A DNA stretch of 31,179 nucleotides from a virus, in IMG/VR virus record IMGVR_UViG_3300028925_006336, positions 1-31,179 of that record. One strand, written 5' to 3'. The notes under the pieces were generated by a model. That model was not told the DNA's origin and did no database searches. It saw only the letters and a program-made list of their open reading frames with translations. Positions 4,433-11,867 of the stretch are shown here, piece after piece (position 1 is the stretch's first letter; each line of letters starts with the position of its first letter). Position numbers and translations under genes: made by a program.

Positions 4433-4594
4433 TTAAGAAAATAATATTATTAATAGTCCGGTCAATATACTGCCTGTTACAAATCCAAGCACCCACGACT
4501 TTACTATATCTATATCATGCCAAACTGCTAAATTCTTAAAATATTCATCAGATGGCCCGTGGCCTGTTTTTGATGAAAAAAAGTTTTTTTTCAT
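4433..4594 (-). CDS. 53-residue membrane protein coupled to the CHASE2 cyclase
   Basis: This short gene starts with an ATG (4592-4594) that overlaps the cyclase stop as ATGA, and ends at a TAA at 4433-4435. The product has a polar N-terminus (MKKNFFSSKTGHGPSDEYF), an amphipathic stretch and one C-terminal transmembrane segment (SWVLGFVTGSILTGLLIILF). There is no recognised family. Overlap with the cyclase and the lack of its own promoter suggest a partner of the membrane-bound cyclase or simply a phage membrane mini-protein. That link is inference from position. Confidence 0.65.
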   Translation of the reverse strand: MKKNFFSSKTGHGPSDEYFKNLAVWHDIDIVKSWVLGFVTGSILTGLLIILFS

Positions 4595-6648
4595 TTAGTT
4601 GTCGCTCTATAGACGCCATCCCAATCAGGAGGGAGGTCTTCTTCTCGTAATACCTCTATACGTTTTTCCATCATAGCATAATAATCTGCCATAACACCAT
4701 TAAATTCATCTCTCAAATCATTCAACCATCTTAATGCCAAGTCCCAATGTTGTTGTCTGTACAAAACTAAGAATTTATCATGTTGTTGTATACATGTACT
4801 ATAGTAATTCATTTCTTGATGAAGTTGTTCGTATCTACCTAAAGAGGTAAAAATGGTTACACCTTCAGTCTTACCTTTGACAGCAATCTTGTCTAATTCA
4901 ATAATTGCAAATTCTTCTTCCATTCCTTTAGATGTTTCGTCACCAAGAATTATCTTCATGCCGTATTCTTTACTTTGTCCTTCAAGTCTTGCAGCAAGAT
5001 TAACTGCATCACCAAGACAACTATAATCAAATCTCTGATCACTTCCCATATTACCCACAACTACCTCTCCTGTATTCAAACCTATTCCAACATTAATAGG
5101 TAAAGCTTTTTCCTTAGCTAATTCAGCATTCAAAACTTTTAAATGATATAACATTTCATGAGATGATCTTAGAGCCAACTGTCTTTGTTCTTCAACATCA
5201 AGAGGTGCGTTCCAAAATGCCATAATACAGTCACCCATGTATTTATCTATAGTTCCACCATTTTTCATAATAATATCTGTCATTGGTGTTAAAAATCTAT
5301 TGATTAGTTTTGTTAATCCTTGTGGGTCTGTTTTGAATTGTTCGCTGATTGGTGTGAACCCTCTTATGTCACAAAACAATAATGTTAGTTCTCTTGTCTC
5401 ACCACCCAATTTGAGTAGAGATGGATTCTTCTGTAATTTTTTAACCATTGCTGGTGCAAGGTAATGCTCAAACTGTTTCTTAATTTCCATTCGTAATTTA
5501 TGTTCTTCCATAAATCTTAGGAATGTTGCAAGAGCCCAAGCAATGAATACTGTGAGTACAGGATAGCTCCAATCTACCAACAAATCATGTTTAGTAAAGA
5601 GATATGAACTGCCATAGAACAATCCATACAATGATGCAGGCATTAGTGCAACACTAAAATACCAAGGCAACAATAATACGACAACCATTAGTGTAAGTGC
5701 GAAACCAAACGATGCTCCCAGCTCTGCGACATTTGTCCAGTATGGTCTTGTGATGTTTCGTCCTGTCATCATCGTCGCAAGAGATGAACCAATCAAATCA
5801 TGCGAATGAATTACACCAACAGGAGTAGATACGGGATTATCAAGACCAGAGGCGGTCATAGACACTATCACAATTTTTCCTTTGAGGTCTGGTAATTTTT
5901 CGTGCAATGCATAGGTTGGCGTTTTCCATTTGAAGTCAAGCCATATGTTCCCATGAGCATCCGTATCAATCATTTTAAATTTAGGTATGCGTAATTTCTC
6001 TACCCCTGCAATACCTGTCTTCATCTGATATGATATGTCTCCTGCGGCCATGCGTAGAATTTCCATACTCATAGATGGATATAATTTATCACCCACTGCA
6101 ATCACCAGAGGCATACGCCTAACCACACCATCCTTCTCTGGTGCAATTATCATCATACCAACAGCATGAGCATTTCTTGCAAGTAGGGGTATTGGACCAA
6201 TGGCGCCTGGATATTGATATACCCAACCTTTCCACGGTTTACCTATTGTTGAAACTCCTCTTATAACACCGCTGTTATCTTTCTCATTGGTAGGTATTTG
6301 TCCTATAATAGTGGGAGTCTTCTTTAGAACTCTTGCTAATGCTCTGTCCTTACCAAACCTATCATCATCTGCAAATAGAATAGGAAGTACGACTAACGCA
6401 GCTCCCGCTTGATATAGTTTTATAATCTCATTTGATAAAGTATTTCTATCCCAAGGCCATTGACCTTTTTTCTTGAGAGTTCCGTTATTGATTTCTATTG
6501 TAACAAGATTGGATAGACTTTGTTGGGTTTGATTGCGTTGATGCTGATCTAGTGCTTTCATACGCACCATATCTAAAAACCAAGGATCAGTGAAGCGAAC
6601 TCCGCATAAAACCAGAATTACTATTAATGATATAATCCATTTTTTCAT
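4591..6648 (-). CDS. CHASE2-domain class III adenylate/guanylate cyclase
   Basis: A 685-aa membrane sensor cyclase. Residues 4-19 are a transmembrane segment or signal anchor. About 30-300 is the periplasmic CHASE2 domain. Hydrophobic segments lie near 310-330, 332-350 and 362-380. The cyclase domain spans about 418-600. Catalytic features are present: metal Asp D427 in FCDIRGF and D473 in DKYMGD, base-recognition K469, and transition-state N550 and R554 in GDAVNLAARLEG. The second specificity position is S543, where Asp or Thr is usual, so ATP is the likelier substrate but this is not certain. Residues 605-685 form a helical tail. I chose the ATG at 6648 because it overlaps the upstream stop (ATGA) and places the hydrophobic segment at the N-terminus. 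It is unusual in a phage. Confidence 0.93.
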   Translation of the reverse strand: MKKWIISLIVILVLCGVRFTDPWFLDMVRMKALDQHQRNQTQQSLSNLVTIEINNGTLKKKGQWPWDRNTLSNEIIKLYQAGAALVVLPILFADDDRFGKDRALARVLKKTPTIIGQIPTNEKDNSGVIRGVSTIGKPWKGWVYQYPGAIGPIPLLARNAHAVGMMIIAPEKDGVVRRMPLVIAVGDKLYPSMSMEILRMAAGDISYQMKTGIAGVEKLRIPKFKMIDTDAHGNIWLDFKWKTPTYALHEKLPDLKGKIVIVSMTASGLDNPVSTPVGVIHSHDLIGSSLATMMTGRNITRPYWTNVAELGASFGFALTLMVVVLLLPWYFSVALMPASLYGLFYGSSYLFTKHDLLVDWSYPVLTVFIAWALATFLRFMEEHKLRMEIKKQFEHYLAPAMVKKLQKNPSLLKLGGETRELTLLFCDIRGFTPISEQFKTDPQGLTKLINRFLTPMTDIIMKNGGTIDKYMGDCIMAFWNAPLDVEEQRQLALRSSHEMLYHLKVLNAELAKEKALPINVGIGLNTGEVVVGNMGSDQRFDYSCLGDAVNLAARLEGQSKEYGMKIILGDETSKGMEEEFAIIELDKIAVKGKTEGVTIFTSLGRYEQLHQEMNYYSTCIQQHDKFLVLYRQQHWDLALRWLNDLRDEFNGVMADYYAMMEKRIEVLREEDLPPDWDGVYRATTK

Positions 6649-8096
6649 TGTGTTCCCTGTGTTGTATTTATCGTACAACCTAAAGCATTACTACAAGTAT
6701 TGTCTAAATTATAATATTGAGCACTGCTACCTTGTTGAATTAAATCAAAATCAGTACTGTGGCCATCTAAGTTAACTCTTGCTCCATGATTACCACTGCC
6801 ACGTTGAGTAATATTTACCTCATGGTCTGCATCTAGTGTAACGTCAAGATAGTGAGTTCCAGTGTCTTCTTGAATAAAAGTTCCTTCATTACTATTTCCG
6901 TTCACATCTAAGAACATTGTTTTCTGGCCATTGTCTTTTTGTGTGACAGTCAAATTATTACTACCACCATCTACGTCTGCCTCAAAAAAGTGTTTTGATA
7001 ATGTTCCACCATCATATTGAGTAAGGTTCATAACATTAGAAGCTCCATTAATATCTATTACTGCTTTATGCTCCCCTTGGTCGTTTGCATGATCCCCTTG
7101 ACTTATTGTTAAATTTGTGTTATTACCATTTATATATAATCCTATTCCATTCTCATCACTACTGCCAGTTGTAGTTACATTGCCTTGTTTTATAGTTAAT
7201 ACGAGATTGTCTCCTGTTAAAGTAGCAGGCCCTGACCAATCTTTATCTACAATAAAATTATCATCACCGTCTTGTCGTATGTTAATTGTGGGGTTGTCAC
7301 CTGATTGTACTATACAAACATTACAACCATTTTCTATACTAGCATTTATTGCAGCAGTTCTTTTTGTAGTTTGTGCTGATGATATGGTTACAGCACTAGT
7401 CGGTTGGTTGAATGTACTTGCTATAGCAGTACGCAATGCATTCATAAATGCTTTGTTGTTATTTGTATAGTATGAACTATGGGATGCATAGTTAATATCT
7501 GTGAATACAAAAACTATACCATCACTATACGCATTGTTTAAACTCTCACCATACCATACTGCTACAACAATATTACCGCTACTATCTTTAGCCAACCATG
7601 TACCATCACCAACCGAAGTTAAAATTCCTCCGGCAGACCAAGTAAGACTACCACTATGATTAGCAATATAAGATTGAGATGTATTAAATGTCGTAATCGA
7701 ATTACCAGAATATGTAGAACTATTATAAACTACATTTCCTCCACCCAATTCATCTTTAATAAATTCTGTTATATTTTGGTTACGAGGATTAAGAGTGGAG
7801 TGAGGATTTTCACCTTGAAGATACAAAGTTCCTCCTCTTGCTAGCAGAGCTTTATACGCTGTTTCTTCTGCTGAGGATAAGTTATACGAATATCTTATAT
7901 CAAATATTTGCTCATAACTAGTCGTAACACTAGGAAGAGAATTTCCCATAGTAACTGTATGACCAGCATCCTCTAGTCTATTCTTCCATTTTTGATGAGT
8001 GTTGCCATACCCCTGATGAAGAATAAAAACATCTTCAGCATATACAGTAGTACTACTGAATATGAATATCAATAGTAGAAGTATAACCCGCTTCAT
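6645..8096 (-). CDS. Secreted protein: GATase-like N-domain plus curlin-type repeat tail
   Basis: 483 aa. Residues 1-20 are a signal peptide ending VYA. Residues 21-230 resemble a ThuA/type-1 amidotransferase-like Rossmann fold (VFILHQGYGN, a GGTLYLQGENPHS segment, GIVFVFTDINY), but I see no convincing catalytic triad. Residues 258-480 contain about nine curlin-like units with Gln near 264, 275, 304, 333, 360, 386, 409, 431, 454 and 480, usually followed by Gly or Asn (VQSGDN, ISQGDHAN, VTQKDNG, ITQRGSGN). Spacing is mostly 22-29, close to the curlin repeat. Cys258/261 and Cys468/473 could form disulfides. The start overlaps the FecR gene by 44 nt. It could be a CsgA/CsgB-like subunit or a capped adhesin secreted through CsgG. 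Confidence 0.8.
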   Translation of the reverse strand: MKRVILLLLIFIFSSTTVYAEDVFILHQGYGNTHQKWKNRLEDAGHTVTMGNSLPSVTTSYEQIFDIRYSYNLSSAEETAYKALLARGGTLYLQGENPHSTLNPRNQNITEFIKDELGGGNVVYNSSTYSGNSITTFNTSQSYIANHSGSLTWSAGGILTSVGDGTWLAKDSSGNIVVAVWYGESLNNAYSDGIVFVFTDINYASHSSYYTNNNKAFMNALRTAIASTFNQPTSAVTISSAQTTKRTAAINASIENGCNVCIVQSGDNPTINIRQDGDDNFIVDKDWSGPATLTGDNLVLTIKQGNVTTTGSSDENGIGLYINGNNTNLTISQGDHANDQGEHKAVIDINGASNVMNLTQYDGGTLSKHFFEADVDGGSNNLTVTQKDNGQKTMFLDVNGNSNEGTFIQEDTGTHYLDVTLDADHEVNITQRGSGNHGARVNLDGHSTDFDLIQQGSSAQYYNLDNTCSNALGCTINTTQGTQ

Positions 8097-9204
8097 CTGT
8101 CCTTATCTCCGGCGCAACGCTACCTTTTTGATCTATATTAATCTTATGTCCATCCACTCTATCTAAGGTGATGTCTATCATACTGCTATCAAATTCTCGA
8201 ATCAATTGAACTGAGTCACCTTCTATAAGAGTTGTTACTAGAGACTCTGGATTATATCCAGCAACTCTGCCATCTGTATTAGATATTGTTCTTGTTAATA
8301 TCGTATTTGGTTTTTTGTATTTTTTGTTTAATTCCGTTAGTACATTTAATAACAAATTAACATCCAAAGGATTAATATCTAAGCTGGTAAATCCACCTTC
8401 TTCTTCTTGACCTTCACATTCTTCCTCTAAACAATTTTTGTCAATCTCTTTCTCTTCATCTAAGAAATTTCCTAGATTCTTTTTCTTTTTCTCTTCAATC
8501 GTAGCAGATGCTAAATCTACTTTCTCTTTAGGTGGTTTGATGATTAACATATTATTAATCATACTTTCTGTTAGATCAAGTATTTTGGGTTTTGTGGGAG
8601 AAGCCTCCCTTGATCTAACCGACGTTGCTTGAAACGCTCTCGTTAATATCACTTGACCTATATCAGACTCCACTGATATCTCTCCTACAGTCCCATCAGC
8701 ATTCGGTAACAATATAATAAGTGATTGGCCTATCTCATCCACCGTCATACTAAAAGCAGTACCACGAACACCTATTCTAGCGGTCGGGGTACGAATGTCA
8801 ACATTTTGTTTGTTTAGCTTTGCTATATTACCACTAGCATACCGTACTGTACCAAGAGCTATTCTAAGTACTAACTTAGAACCTTCAGCACTATTAGGGT
8901 CATAAACAAAATCATCTATGATGAGAGAGCTTTGAGAACTCACGGCCACATTGGTATCATCTATAAATGTGATACCAATTTCCCCTTTACCAGTTTTGAC
9001 ATTATCCATAAACATAATGTCAGAATCTAGGTTAAGGTTAGATTCCGTTCCTTTTCTCTCAACAGACGCAACACCTTCTTGAAGTACTACATTACCAATT
9101 GCTGCAGCATATGATAGCTGGGGCAATAATACTAACAAAATTGCTATTAGTGTCCATCTCAAGTTAGTCCGTAATAATGATATCAACATCTGAGCTAGTT
9201 GCAT
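8053..9204 (-). CDS. FecR-domain periplasmic protein with curlin-like C-terminus
   Basis: An exported protein of up to 383 aa. An N-terminal hydrophobic segment ends LPQLSYA. A FecR domain follows: GNVVLQEGVASVERKG, VKTGKGEIGITFIDDTNVAV, then PTARIGVRGTAFSM. Later come a Lys-rich then acidic linker (about 225-275) and a C-terminal beta-rich part (about 320-383) with HKINIDQKGS at 353-362, resembling one curlin strand-turn. The start is uncertain: ATG 9204, ATG 9189, or a TTG at 9162 directly after the upstream stop, which would give a tidy 19-residue signal peptide. No ribosome site stands out. FecR-domain genes next to CHASE2-cyclase genes are common in bacterial chromosomes, which supports a functional pair. 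Confidence 0.88.
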   Translation of the reverse strand: MQLAQMLISLLRTNLRWTLIAILLVLLPQLSYAAAIGNVVLQEGVASVERKGTESNLNLDSDIMFMDNVKTGKGEIGITFIDDTNVAVSSQSSLIIDDFVYDPNSAEGSKLVLRIALGTVRYASGNIAKLNKQNVDIRTPTARIGVRGTAFSMTVDEIGQSLIILLPNADGTVGEISVESDIGQVILTRAFQATSVRSREASPTKPKILDLTESMINNMLIIKPPKEKVDLASATIEEKKKKNLGNFLDEEKEIDKNCLEEECEGQEEEGGFTSLDINPLDVNLLLNVLTELNKKYKKPNTILTRTISNTDGRVAGYNPESLVTTLIEGDSVQLIREFDSSMIDITLDRVDGHKINIDQKGSVAPEIRTDEAGYTSTIDIHIQ

Positions 9205-9868
9205 TAGTTACTGTTAAATCAACATCTGTACTATTTGCTCCAGTTTGTGACATAGTAAAATCACTACCAGCACAAGAACCCGTACATAACAGTTTTGTTT
9301 TGTGTGCGCCTGCACCAGTATGAGTAATAATTATATCAACATCATCACTGTCCGTTGCAATATCAATATCGGTTGTTTTATCCGATCCAGTACTGGATGA
9401 ATTTTCAAGAAGTGTTATATCAATATCATCGCCGACAACATCCACAGTAACACTAACATCTTGAACTGTAGCTGCATTACCAATTGTGTATGAAGTTTCA
9501 CCGCTACTTCCTACTCTAGTTTCTATGATTCTTACATCATCCGTTGCTGCCGATGCGCCAACATTTATTGCAGTAGTATTAGTACTACCTGTTTGACTTA
9601 TTTTTAGATCGTCTGCGCCTGCTTCACCAGCACCAATAAAATCACCAGTTATCACATTAGAAGCACCAATTAAATCAATGTCAACATCTAAGTTAGCACC
9701 AGTAAGTAATGTTCTGTCACCTGTTGCACCAATAAGATTTCCGTTTCCATCCATAGTTATGTCTAGGTCTAAGTTAGCACCAGACTGAGTGATATAAACT
9801 TTACTGTCTGCAAAACTTGCACTTGTCATAGCAAAAAACATTATAAATGCAAGTATTACTTTCTTCAT
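9164..9868 (-). CDS. Curlin-like secreted beta-repeat protein (234 aa)
   Basis: A signal peptide of 20 residues ends ASFA. The mature chain is Asp/Thr/Gly-rich with alternating hydrophobics typical of a beta-solenoid. Curlin-like turns appear as ITQSGAN (Q28), ISQTGSTN (Q92) and MSQTGAN (Q208), with degenerate strands such as DLDITMDGNGN, DVDIDLIGASN and DVDIIITHTG between them. Cys195 and Cys199 may form a disulfide. It is the gene directly after csgG (ATGA overlap at 9865-9868), the position expected of a secretion substrate. It is more acidic and more degenerate than E. coli CsgA, so the fold assignment is probable and amyloid formation is inference. Confidence 0.75.
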   Translation of the reverse strand: MKKVILAFIMFFAMTSASFADSKVYITQSGANLDLDITMDGNGNLIGATGDRTLLTGANLDVDIDLIGASNVITGDFIGAGEAGADDLKISQTGSTNTTAINVGASAATDDVRIIETRVGSSGETSYTIGNAATVQDVSVTVDVVGDDIDITLLENSSSTGSDKTTDIDIATDSDDVDIIITHTGAGAHKTKLLCTGSCAGSDFTMSQTGANSTDVDLTVTNATSSDVDIIITD

Positions 9869-10674
9869 TTTTTTACCTCCTTCTTTTGATCATCCTCTAC
9901 TTTCTTAAATTCCCACAATCCTTTTTTAGTTCCTTCGTGGATCATATCAACAATAACTTTATCAATAGCTTTTCTTACTGCATATGTTACAGATTCATTC
10001 TCTGTATATCCAGCCTCCACTTCTAGTAGTTTAGTTCCTAAGTCTAAGAATCTAAACACTGTAGCAGATAGTCTCGTACTTAATATGGTCTTCTCACTAC
10101 TAACTGCTAATAAAATTTCACCAGTACTAACCGATACTAATCTTATACCAACAGATACGCTATCTTCTCTGTATTCTTCTTGTGCGCCAATTCCTAGTAG
10201 TCGAGCTCCAATTCCTCCTGTCATTGTGTTAGTATCATATCCTACAATACCACCTTCGATCAATACTCCAGCAAACAGTAAAGGTTTTAAATCGTCTTTA
10301 TCACCGTGTGTCTTTCTCGTTTGACGTATAATCTGTCTTTCTTTCAACAGATTATCTAACCCAATACGTTCTATAACCATGAACCATTCACCACCACCAG
10401 CACGTTTCAATGAATGTAAAAGCCATACATGAGCGCCTTGAGTGACTGCCATACTTATCAATGCCACACCATCACCTGGTTTTCTTTGTCCCGTCATGTC
10501 TGTAAATGAATAGACTGCTATCGGAACCTTCTGTACAGGTGATGAAATCTCTTCTAGTTTTTCATATAATAGTTCAGTTGTTGATGTAGGCGGATCAGAC
10601 GGAACCGTTTGACATCCAAACAGTATACTAAAACTGAAAATCGTTAAGAGGCAATGTAATGACTTGACTACCAT
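9865..10674 (-). CDS. csgG: CsgG, curli outer-membrane secretion channel
   Basis: 269-aa lipoprotein: a signal peptide ends in the lipobox LFGC with C21 lipidated. The CsgG domain is clear: PIAVYSFTDMTGQRKP (51-66), RIGLDNLLKERQIIRQ, EGGIVGYDTNTMTGGIGAR, then LVSVSTGEILLAVSSEKTIL and FRFLDLGTKLLEVEAGYT, ending in EGTKKGLWEF. Length and order match E. coli CsgG (277 aa precursor), a nonameric barrel that exports curlins. The loop that forms the constriction (Tyr51, Asn55, Phe56 in mature E. coli CsgG) appears here as GDGVALIS, lacking aromatics. The start overlaps the csgF end by 47 nt. The tail is Lys-rich. Confidence 0.95.
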   Translation of the reverse strand: MVVKSLHCLLTIFSFSILFGCQTVPSDPPTSTTELLYEKLEEISSPVQKVPIAVYSFTDMTGQRKPGDGVALISMAVTQGAHVWLLHSLKRAGGGEWFMVIERIGLDNLLKERQIIRQTRKTHGDKDDLKPLLFAGVLIEGGIVGYDTNTMTGGIGARLLGIGAQEEYREDSVSVGIRLVSVSTGEILLAVSSEKTILSTRLSATVFRFLDLGTKLLEVEAGYTENESVTYAVRKAIDKVIVDMIHEGTKKGLWEFKKVEDDQKKEVKK

Positions 10675-11173
10675 CTGGCCCTACTATATCTAATATCACT
10701 ATATCGTTTGCAACATCCTTTGTGTATGTAACTGTTGTATCATTAAATGTATATGTTCCAGTACAGTTACTACCAACACCATCAGTGTTTCCTGCTTCTG
10801 GATTCAAAGTATTTTGTGATGTTATTACTACTCCATCAACTGGTCCAGTTGTATAAGTTGTTCCACATGATTCGCCAAACAAATTATCCGTTAACTGTTT
10901 TGAAAACTCTGCATATATTCTTGACTCCAAATTATCTAAAAATTTTGCGTAATTCGTATTCTTTGCTGCTGATATTTTTTTAGCTGCAGCAGAATCTTTC
11001 TTTCCTCTAATTTCAGCCTTACGAGTAAACTCTTGGTTCTCAATAGTCAAGAAATGGGCACTTGCTCCTATTCCACTAAAAGAAGGTGATTTCCATTTAT
11101 GTACCATACCCCCACCAAATGCATTAGATGTAATGGCAACGGAAAAACAAAGTATGTAAAATATATATTTCAT
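10628..11173 (-). CDS. csgF: CsgF-like curli assembly factor
   Basis: 181 aa. The signal peptide ends NAFG, so the mature protein starts GGMVHKWKSPSFSGIG, matching the E. coli CsgF N-terminus (GTMTFQFRNPNFGG) that plugs into the CsgG barrel. A helical segment (about 60-95) and a C-terminal beta part (VANDIVILDIVGPDGSQVIT) also match. Relative to E. coli CsgF (138 aa) there is an insertion of about 40 residues around 100-145, Gly/Thr/Asn-rich with two Cys (C103 and C136 by my count). It precedes csgG with a 47-nt overlap and follows a membrane-protein gene by ATGA. CsgF normally couples the channel to surface nucleation. Confidence 0.88.
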   Translation of the reverse strand: MKYIFYILCFSVAITSNAFGGGMVHKWKSPSFSGIGASAHFLTIENQEFTRKAEIRGKKDSAAAKKISAAKNTNYAKFLDNLESRIYAEFSKQLTDNLFGESCGTTYTTGPVDGVVITSQNTLNPEAGNTDGVGSNCTGTYTFNDTTVTYTKDVANDIVILDIVGPDGSQVITLPLNDFQF

Positions 11174-11529
11174 TTTTTTAATTTTGCTATCTCTTTTTTA
11201 TTTGCAGTAATTTCTTTATCTTGATTATAATCCAATTCTGCTTGTCTAACTTCCATCCTTTTTTTATTAGCTGCTTCAAAAGGGTCCATCTGTTGATTTT
11301 GTATTTCTATTATAGTATGTATCTTTTGATCCAACCTAATCATGTCATTATCTAACATTCTCACTCTGTCAATCAAGCCCACTAATGTACTACTTGCTGT
11401 AGCTAAACTTGGTAAAATATTGTGCGTAACAAATTTCCAGACGTAATATATAAAATACGCCATCCCTACAGCAACCACTGTAGGAACGCCATACTGATTA
11501 AACATATCAACAATAGTAGTAATTCCCAA
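11170..11529 (-). CDS. Membrane protein with coiled coil (119 aa)
   Basis: The function is unknown. Residues 14-40 (VPTVVAVGMAYFIYYVWKFV) form one transmembrane helix. Residues 45-119 are helical and charged with coiled-coil spacing (LIDRVRMLDNDMIRLDQKIH), ending in Lys-rich KKEIAKLKK. It resembles its upstream neighbour at 11532-11810 (VGLIDRVRMLDNDMIRLD against IGALDNRVKTINNEIVRLD), so the two are probably duplicated. It is linked to csgF by ATGA overlap and to its neighbour by a 2-nt gap. It could be an inner-membrane part of the secretion apparatus or a small holin-like protein. Confidence 0.75.
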   Translation of the reverse strand: MGITTIVDMFNQYGVPTVVAVGMAYFIYYVWKFVTHNILPSLATASSTLVGLIDRVRMLDNDMIRLDQKIHTIIEIQNQQMDPFEAANKKRMEVRQAELDYNQDKEITANKKEIAKLKK

Positions 11530-11531
11530 AA

Positions 11532-11810
11532 TTAATCCTTCCTAGTATCTTCTTTTCCATCGGCCGCAGACAATCTGCGAGTATCGGGTTTAACACCTAA
11601 CGCATGACATATGAGAGCATCAAGCCTTACTATCTCATTATTAATAGTTTTTACACGATTATCTAATGCACCAATCATGCTATTAAGGCCAACTGCCCTA
11701 CTAACAACAGAATCAAGAATATATTTCAAAAGTAGTATAATAAAAAACCCGCCACCAATTACGGCTGCGATGGAAAAGCCTAGGTCAGCAATTAAACTAA
11801 ATGCTTCCAT
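11532..11810 (-). CDS. Membrane protein, paralogue of its neighbour (92 aa)
   Basis: The function is unknown. It is the first gene of the curli/cyclase chain. Residues 12-35 (FSIAAVIGGGFFIILLLKYI) form a transmembrane helix, then a heptad-like region (NSMIGALDNRVKTINNEIVR) and a polar tail. The ATG at 11810 has GGAG 6 nt upstream and lies about 44 nt below the start predicted for the late promoter at 11860-11867. Similarity in plan and sequence to the 119-aa neighbour suggests a tandem duplication or a heteromeric pair. Confidence 0.75.
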   Translation of the reverse strand: MEAFSLIADLGFSIAAVIGGGFFIILLLKYILDSVVSRAVGLNSMIGALDNRVKTINNEIVRLDALICHALGVKPDTRRLSAADGKEDTRKD

Positions 11811-11825
11811 AAGCTACTCCATTTT

Positions 11826-11849
11826 TATCGTGATTATATGATCACGATA
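11826..11849 (-). promoter_or_regulatory. Hairpin at the 5' end of the late curli/cyclase transcript
   Basis: A perfect 9-bp inverted repeat (tatcgtgat, 6-nt loop, atcacgata). With transcription starting near 11854 the hairpin would lie within about 5 nt of the mRNA 5' end, upstream of the GGAG ribosome site. Such a 5' stem typically stabilises mRNA. The same palindrome could instead be an operator. Confidence 0.55.
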
Positions 11850-11859
11850 TTACTGATAC

Positions 11860-11867
11860 TATTTATA
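11860..11867 (-). promoter_or_regulatory. T4-type late promoter TATAAATA
   Basis: An exact match to the T4 late consensus on the minus strand, in the short gap between a hairpin-terminated unit and the first gene of the curli/cyclase chain. T4-type late promoters are read by RNA polymerase carrying a gp55-type sigma with the sliding clamp, so the downstream chain should be expressed with virion genes. Confidence 0.8.

Follow-up and report, generated by a model that had tools for sequence, protein, structure and literature searches.

At positions 4433–11810 of the virus record IMGVR_UViG_3300028925_006336 (31,179 bases, analysed over its full length and called the window here) lies a chain of nine open reading frames (ORFs), all on the minus strand, in which genes of curli-type (type VIII) secretion are joined to two curlin-like proteins, a FecR-domain protein and a CHASE2-cyclase (Table 1). 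The original prediction for this DNA had given the order as transmembrane (TM) protein, TM protein, CsgF, CsgG, curlin-like protein, FecR, curlin-repeat protein, CHASE2-cyclase and small TM protein, and the ORF coordinates confirm it. The junctions also agree, with one 2-nucleotide (nt) gap, ATGA overlaps of 4 nt and overlaps of 47, 41 and 44 nt, as do the flanks, which hold an inverted repeat ending the upstream gene, the element TATAAATA and two tRNAs. An Rfam scan over the window found the two tRNAs and nothing else. For the CHASE2-cyclase, an in-frame ATG at 6648 is an alternative start that yields 685 amino acids (aa) and a 4-nt overlap.

Table 1. The nine-gene chain of the window and the promoter element ahead of it
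Feature	Position	Strand	Match or remark
T4-type late promoter element TATAAATA	11860..11867	-	about 50 nt ahead of the first gene
Small TM protein 1, 92 aa	11532..11810	-	PHROG 18771, 8.9e-23
Small TM protein 2, 119 aa, TTG start	11170..11529	-	PHROG 18771, 5.6e-28
CsgF-like protein, 181 aa	10628..11173	-	PF10614, 2.6e-7
CsgG-like outer-membrane secretion pore, 269 aa	9865..10674	-	PF03783, 1.3e-56
Curlin-like protein 1 (curlin-1), 234 aa, conserved stem subunit	9164..9868	-	the HTVC008M homologue is annotated as CsgB
FecR-domain exported protein, 383 aa	8053..9204	-	PF04773, 4.7e-7
Curlin-like protein 2 (curlin-2), 483 aa, exchange slot	6645..8096	-	head 22-228, curlin-repeat ladder 260-481
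CHASE2 + class III adenylate cyclase, 695 aa, TTG start	4591..6678	-	PF05226, 1.5e-36; PF00211, 1.8e-20
Small TM protein, 53 aa	4433..4594	-	ORF only

Pfam gave no match to the two curlin-like or the three TM proteins of the window. Six of the nine proteins match PHROGs, in five main families that are all of 'unknown function', and the 53-aa protein has a match in neither database. The CsgG-like protein has a lipobox-like LFGC, as read from its sequence, and the signal peptides of the curlin-like proteins were judged by eye. That the DNA belongs to a phage was upheld by a T4-like primase and an exonuclease, both nearest to those of the methylophage Melnitz (52.6% and 55.4%, respectively). A host-chromosome origin of the window was ruled out by the virus record itself, the T4-like primase, the exonuclease and a ribonucleotide reductase, and by a synteny common to many virus contigs.

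The arrangement had been held to be new, with an earlier description of the complete set in marine phages named as the finding that would remove its novelty. The core set is present in the same order in the Pelagibacter phage HTVC008M, in Melnitz and in PMC9599517 (mSystems 2022; papers are cited by their PubMed Central identifiers and from their accessible parts), and the claim of novelty therefore fails. The module of PMC9599517, from pelagi-podophages and pelagimyophages, consists of a histidine kinase, CsgF, CsgG, CsgA/B, FecR, a second CsgA/B and an adenylate cyclase, and shares the gene set and order CsgF-CsgG-curlin-FecR-curlin-cyclase with the window; metatranscriptome evidence for it is given in the same paper. 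HTVC008M (KC465899) and Melnitz (MZ577097) carry syntenic homologues of the six core genes and of two TM genes, the FecR and curlin-2 homologues of HTVC008M being annotated as 'hypothetical'. CsgF and CsgG had been described earlier in PMC7029224 and PMC9004378, with sibling capture and a lysis-timing pore as proposed functions. However, PMC9599517 labels FecR an iron-dependent regulator and the first gene a histidine kinase, two labels that the proteins of the window put in question, and its accessible text does not describe the curlin-like tail of FecR, the exchange of curlin-2 heads or the type I cousin presented below. Searches of the open-licence PMC literature on the type I cousin, on CHASE2/FecR in phages and on phage curli with PA14 or in pelagiphages, judged by titles and the beginnings of abstracts, gave no recognisable report of these points. 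Compared with known curli systems, the window has the CsgG pore, CsgF and the curlin-repeat substrates; its product is predicted to be amyloid-like.

Relatives were collected in four IMG/VR scans, each of which kept the best 80 stretches and favours near relatives. Together with the window and the isolate loci they form a set of 237 sequences in 143 non-redundant clusters, and only loci with enough flank entered the co-occurrence counts. Loci with CsgG also have a curlin and FecR (31/31) and a cyclase (30/31), loci with the cyclase have FecR, CsgG, CsgF and a curlin (20/20), and those with FecR have CsgG (42/42) and the cyclase (36/36). The module is conserved among these nearest relatives, and the predicted tie between the secretion genes and the signalling pair is supported.

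The C-terminal tail of the FecR protein

The FecR protein of the window is composed of a signal-peptide-like helix, a FecR domain at residues ~37–196, a linker at ~210–310 and a C-terminal beta domain at 316–382. Its AlphaFold model, made with 84 sequences, has a mean confidence score (pLDDT) of 82, with values of ~86–93 in the beta domain and low confidence in the ~100-residue linker. The modelled FecR domain resembles PupR (Z 15.4). Its first half also resembles 5ix9, a surface-anchoring domain, both in fold (Z 11.4, with 30% identity across 73 residues) and, weakly, in sequence (E 0.0059). The 5ix9 entry, named 'antifreeze protein', is presumably the Marinomonas RTX adhesin. No cytoplasmic N-terminal anti-sigma region precedes the signal-peptide-like helix, and PF04773 is the only Pfam match. 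By its predicted architecture, the 'FecR' of the window is an exported protein and not an iron regulator.

Of 117 distinct phage FecR proteins, 113 carry a hydrophobic-x-hydrophobic-x-Q motif at the C terminus, compared with 8.7% when their own tails are shuffled. The same motif ends 84 of 129 curlin-1-class and 56 of 79 curlin-2 proteins. Among the controls it was found in 2 of 115 cyclases, 0 of 123 CsgG, 8 of 114 CsgF and 7 of 204 TM proteins and in 48 of 1555 other ORFs, the latter being mechanical ORFs of at least 120 aa from both strands. A tail of two such units is present in 94 of the 117 FecR proteins versus 3 of the 1555 other ORFs. Its commonest spacing is 21–22 residues, and spacings of 22–23 are frequent in curlin-1 and curlin-2 too, beside 11 and 26–29. 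Conservation across the 84 sequences reaches 90% or more at four residues, Q359, I378, I380 and Q382 (numbered as in the window). In a profile comparison, the last repeat of curlin-2 and the FecR tail aligned from end to end (probability 51.9%, E 1.5e-4); the probability was 31.1% for the curlin-1 profile, 0.14–4.3% for four control profiles and at most 0.42% for 20 column shuffles. Searched alone, the tail gave no convincing row in the Protein Data Bank (PDB) that would point to a known fold (~Z 3).

The presence of the tail is associated with curli genes. At the 71 bacterial FecR loci that lack CsgG, the one-unit form is seen in 6 and the two-unit form in 1 of 78 FecR ORFs, and none of nine type I FecR adhesins has the tail. 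Both curli-linked FecR proteins from Caulobacteraceae, treated below, carry it in the one-unit form.

The second curlin gene as an exchange slot

A scan of 39 proteins, made up of 34 long curlin-2 homologues and 5 further ORFs, gave a match to the Curlin_rpt model (PF07012) in 18 (best match 1.3e-11). The model does not match the curlin copies of the window itself at E 0.1 or 0.01, and their repeats were found by alignment. Among curlin-2 proteins of at least 400 aa, BLAST groups the N-terminal heads into 21 resembling class I glutamine amidotransferases (GATase-like, including the window), 7 of PA14 type, 5 of a type called 'FENG' and 1 other. The head is of PA14 type in HTVC008M, absent in Melnitz and GATase/ThuA-like in the window; the neighbouring phage genes differ as well. 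The 93 loci (of the 143 clusters) placed on a CsgG tree made with FastTree only comprise 24 headless, 22 without curlin-2, 20 GATase-like, 15 'mini', 7 PA14, 4 FENG and 1 other. On this tree the GATase-like label requires 12 changes, 9 of them forced by well-supported branches, and the PA14 label requires 6. Taken together, the head labels partly follow the tree, with 31 changes versus a shuffled mean of 56.1. The PA14 label alone does not follow it (6 changes versus a shuffled mean of 6.8, with 80 of 500 shuffles as low).

One case is the pair of HTVC008M, with a PA14 head, and locus L127, with a GATase-like head. The C-terminal 170 residues of their curlin-2 proteins are 93% identical, at 70% identity in CsgG and 65% in FecR, and their heads align with a score of 41, the level of shuffled sequences (mean 40.8), compared with 845 for two PA14 heads. 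In 64 pairs of loci with CsgG 70–98% identical, median identity, taken over the longer protein, is 0.55 for curlin-2 and 0.76–0.86 for the other genes, with curlin-1 at 0.86. Identity falls below 0.35 in 44% of the curlin-2 pairs and in 0% of those of the other genes; the 64 pairs are not independent of each other. As judged by these alignments, the second curlin gene is shown to be an exchange slot, in which unrelated heads stand on a shared stem.

The model of the window's head is an alpha/beta domain resembling IFT52-N (Z 15.0), ThuA-like proteins (13.0) and class I GATases (~11–12). A Foldseek search with it gave no E below 1e-3, and the confidence of the head model is uneven. No invariant or near-invariant cysteine that could correspond to the catalytic residue of class I GATases was found in 21 head sequences. 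A PA14 domain was detected in 5 of the 39 scanned proteins, and the PA14 heads inspected carry a DDG stretch; PA14 domains of the sugar-binding type, with a D-cis-D motif, are described from RTX adhesins in PMC6650083.

Further genes are found around the slot in some relatives. Between FecR and curlin-2, L045:12674-13417 (with a similar start in L069) probably encodes the one scanned protein that the SoxY and SoxZ models matched. Between curlin-2 and the cyclase, an exported-looking protein of 636–676 residues without an assigned family is encoded at L019:14017-15927, L078:13007-15037 and L105:11893-13884 and in L079, where it is cut by the contig end; it was read as another possible cargo of this slot.

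A type I secretion cousin and chromosomal relatives

A related set of genes is joined to type I secretion. In a contig binned into a 'Rickettsiales' metagenome-assembled genome (MAG), L244:5210-15365 encodes a 1317-residue protein that has a FecR domain on its N-terminal side and a GATase-like head (E 1.1e-18), followed by a TolC-like protein, an ABC-type membrane protein, an HlyD-like protein, a CHASE2-cyclase and two TM genes. This cousin is also present in L355, L357, L358, L366, L378, L385, L388, L401, L404 and L406. A scan with the L244 cyclase gave 302 viral stretches, of which the best 80 were kept. Eight non-redundant loci from two L244-based scans have at least 6 kb upstream, and seven of these show FecR-adhesin, TolC, ABC, HlyD and cyclase, the eighth a type VIII set. 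HlyD was found in 18 of 31 type I loci with at least 250 nt upstream, and the cyclase is followed by two TM genes in 32 of 44. By inspection, RTX-like repeats end four of nine distinct complete adhesins. No CsgG was found in five type I contigs searched whole, and the cyclases of the type I loci form one clade (29 rows, support 99) in a FastTree phylogeny with 101 type VIII and 14 bacterial rows. In the window, the 5ix9-type adhesin domain belongs to a protein of 383 aa that ends in a curlin-like tail; the cousin phages have the form of a giant adhesin. In a short contig, L421, a type-I-class cyclase precedes CsgF and CsgG, possibly as both modules in tandem.

The phage origin of the cousin was examined separately. 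Gp23, Terminase_6N and the phrog_47 primase are absent from six type I contigs tested, and in INPHARED the HlyD-like protein matched only 6 records, at 28–31% identity and none over 80% of its length. One of these six, G542, was read as an incomplete phage genome because it encodes a phage family-B DNA polymerase (phrog_262, 3.5e-192), Hsp70 and SufB.

Two Caulobacteraceae MAG contigs, L240:7049-13106 and L241:7086-13106, have CsgF-CsgG-curlin-curlin-FecR-CHASE2-cyclase in a row. Their neighbours are chromosomal (glycosyltransferase, TonB receptor and prolyl oligopeptidase; amidohydrolase, acyl-CoA dehydrogenase and methylmalonyl-CoA mutase), and no phage hallmark was found among 10 proteins scanned from them. 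The FecR proteins of both end in the Q-tail and are 52% identical to that of the phage locus L236. Unlike in the window, the TM pair is missing from these loci, and FecR and the cyclase have neither a curlin nor a head domain between them. Since a related, differently joined set stands among chromosomal genes, the module is not confined to phages, and its invention by phages only was set aside. The two loci speak against a fusion made wholly in phages, and also against the statement in PMC9599517 that FecR, histidine kinase and adenylate cyclase are not within bacterial type VIII operons. Either an alphaproteobacterial module may have entered phages, which would fit the published alphaproteobacterial origin, or the transfer may have gone in the reverse direction.

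Alphaproteobacterial curli loci share CsgF, CsgG and curlin-repeat genes with the window, but FecR, cyclase and TM genes are absent within ~9 kb on each side in five of five such loci, these being the best CsgG matches among 385 genomes of which 36 had any match. Among the 71 bacterial FecR loci without CsgG, 17 have a match of at least 60 bits to the CHASE2-cyclase model and none has the TM genes. A comparable pairing is the BiofilmReg operon of Burkholderia (PMC5192318), where an exported FecR-domain protein stands beside a CHASE2 membrane sensor and a response regulator that affects biofilm; there, the FecR protein has a LysM domain, CHASE2 is part of a histidine kinase and no curli gene is among the four operon genes. 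Six further contigs (L237, L238, L239, L242, L243 and L245) had been placed in MAGs with the labels Flavobacteriaceae, Rhodobacteraceae, Pirellulales and Pelagibacter. They hold the phage-type module whole or in part, five of the six with TM genes, and are probably phage contigs.

Expression, signalling and proposed function

The element TATAAATA was found twice in the window versus 3.63 expected, without enrichment, and a late promoter judged by this count was discarded as not above chance; only the comparative test of its position was positive. In that test, 34 of 80 loci have the element no more than 150 nt ahead of their first TM gene (2.1 expected). It also precedes CsgF in 35 of 112 (3.8 expected), curlin-1 in 4 of 112 and the cyclase in 8 of 90, with none before CsgG (0/114) or FecR (0/107). 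Sigma-70-like matches across the region are near chance (47 versus 40.2, standard deviation 5.9). Of the single late operon originally predicted, the late promoter at the head is borne out by its conserved position. A single transcript is not universal, because TATAAATA stands inside the chain, before CsgF, curlin-1 or the cyclase, in some relatives.

The two TM proteins encoded ahead of CsgF are paralogues of one family, and TM protein 1 consists of one TM helix and a coiled-coil-like segment. In 34 of 50 loci their genes are found upstream in the same orientation, and in several of the remainder elsewhere on the locus. At the position given as a histidine kinase in PMC9599517, the window has these two genes of 92–119 aa. 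The family has 204 distinct members, 30 of which were scanned with Pfam; at E 0.05 their matches include neither a kinase domain nor a holin family. A histidine-kinase identity found no support in these 30 members or in the length, and matches to PDB sequences resembled coiled-coil noise.

In the CHASE2-cyclase, the active-site residues D, D, K and R are present in 110 of 110 sequences and the asparagine in 86 of 110, the window among them. These residues we take to be the two metal-binding aspartates, the adenine-binding lysine, and the arginine and asparagine of the transition state. The remaining 24 have serine for the asparagine, and in all of them the adenine-site aspartate is also changed; they include L034, L173, L169 and L010, the serine being present in Melnitz also, and may be altered or weak enzymes. 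In L362 and L425 the cyclase genes are doubled in tandem.

The reading that is narrowly favoured is that late in infection the cell would export a curlin-type, amyloid-like fibre, display it on its surface as an adhesin and read its state of assembly, with FecR and the CHASE2-cyclase monitoring the anchored end. By homology, CsgG and CsgF would form the outer-membrane gate; curlin-like protein 1 would be the conserved stem subunit, and curlin-like protein 2 a stem-compatible subunit whose head, exchangeable as described above, may be adhesive or ligand-binding. FecR would sit at the anchored end, where its curlin-like tail could join or template the fibre. From the conserved FecR-CHASE2 pairing and the intact active site we infer that periplasmic FecR contacts CHASE2 and that assembly or blockage of the fibre alters cyclic AMP (cAMP) in the host. 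The benefit could be adhesion or aggregation of infected cells, or masking of the surface against competing phages. In favour of this reading are the close linkage of the genes, the FecR tail and its association with curli, the two folds that the FecR model resembles, the exchange of heads, the type I cousin, the conserved cyclase residues, the late promoter, the low substitution ratios against L169 and the Burkholderia operon.

Several observations weigh against this reading. The profile match between the FecR tail and the curlins is moderate, not decisive, curlin-2 is lacking in the 22 loci counted above, and no clumping was seen in Melnitz cultures according to PMC9004378. The ratio of nonsynonymous to synonymous substitution rates (dN/dS), which at 0.07–0.23 in seven genes between the window and L169 is favourable, reaches 0.56 in three further comparisons (0.03–0.56). 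Between the window and L169 the cyclase is just 65% identical and FecR 89%, a sign that the two genes are not always transferred as a pair, and the 24 cyclases with serine count on the same side. A search of 10 phage records, several incomplete, found no protein that binds cyclic nucleotides. Of 147 genomes from the family to which a MAG with the title Candidatus Pelagibacter belongs, just 9 have a cyclic-nucleotide-binding domain and 2 a class III cyclase above the cut-off, and cAMP would therefore be new to many such hosts.

The last of these points would suit a surface fibre only. FecR and the cyclase would then be mere passengers or have roles of their own; FecR might, for instance, be a second nucleator and the cyclase might perturb host cAMP. 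The curlin-like tail gives FecR the look of a nucleator, the L169 cyclase is far more divergent from the window than its FecR, and a known cAMP receiver is missing from the 10 phage records and from most genomes of that family. On the other hand, 17 of the 71 bacterial FecR loci without CsgG have a gene matching the CHASE2-cyclase model within the stretch retrieved, and the FecR-cyclase pair persists when the secretion system changes; a fibre without monitoring is considered rather unlikely. A broader and tentative proposal, a possible extension, is that FecR, the CHASE2-cyclase and the paired TM proteins are a portable cassette acting as a 'surface-polymer checkpoint', which would read the anchored end of an exported polymer into cAMP, the head being swapped like a receptor-binding protein. 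The polymer would be the curlin fibre in type VIII loci or the RTX-like giant adhesin in type I loci, and the curlin-like tail, shared by the curli-linked FecR proteins of phages and of the two bacterial contigs, would enable FecR to sense an amyloid rather than form part of an adhesin.

Two further readings go back to published proposals. For Melnitz, structure models and synteny led to a gated pore for lysis timing (PMC9004378), pinholin- or secretin-like, in which CsgG and CsgF would depolarise the envelope late and the small TM proteins would be holin-like. The late promoter and the holin-like size of the two TM proteins agree with it. However, it leaves unexplained two curlin-repeat proteins under purifying selection, the exchangeable heads, the FecR tail and the cousin with TolC/HlyD and a giant adhesin, and the scan of the 30 TM proteins gave no holin family; lysis timing is considered improbable. 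A nutrient-import pore with an iron sensor, suggested in PMC9599517, would let CsgG admit siderophores or cofactors while FecR senses iron. It is the least probable of the readings and finds little room here, as the FecR of the window has no cytoplasmic anti-sigma part, the pore is accompanied by curlin-like substrates in 31 of 31 loci and the cassette also uses type I export.

In sum, the module exists, is carried by a phage and has been described before. What looks new are the curlin-like tail of FecR, the exchange of heads on curlin-2, the cousin with type I secretion and the relatives on chromosomes. Two published labels, iron regulator and histidine kinase, are called into question, as is the statement in the accessible text of PMC9599517 that FecR and cyclase are missing from bacterial type VIII loci, and the signalling cassette is not bound to one secretion machine. 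If the late surface display of a monitored fibre is correct, open-ocean phages would coat the cells they infect with amyloid-type fibres, the tips of which would evolve through the swapping of domains, and would carry their own sensor for this surface structure, and 'sibling capture', superinfection masking and phage-driven aggregation would become testable with defined parts.

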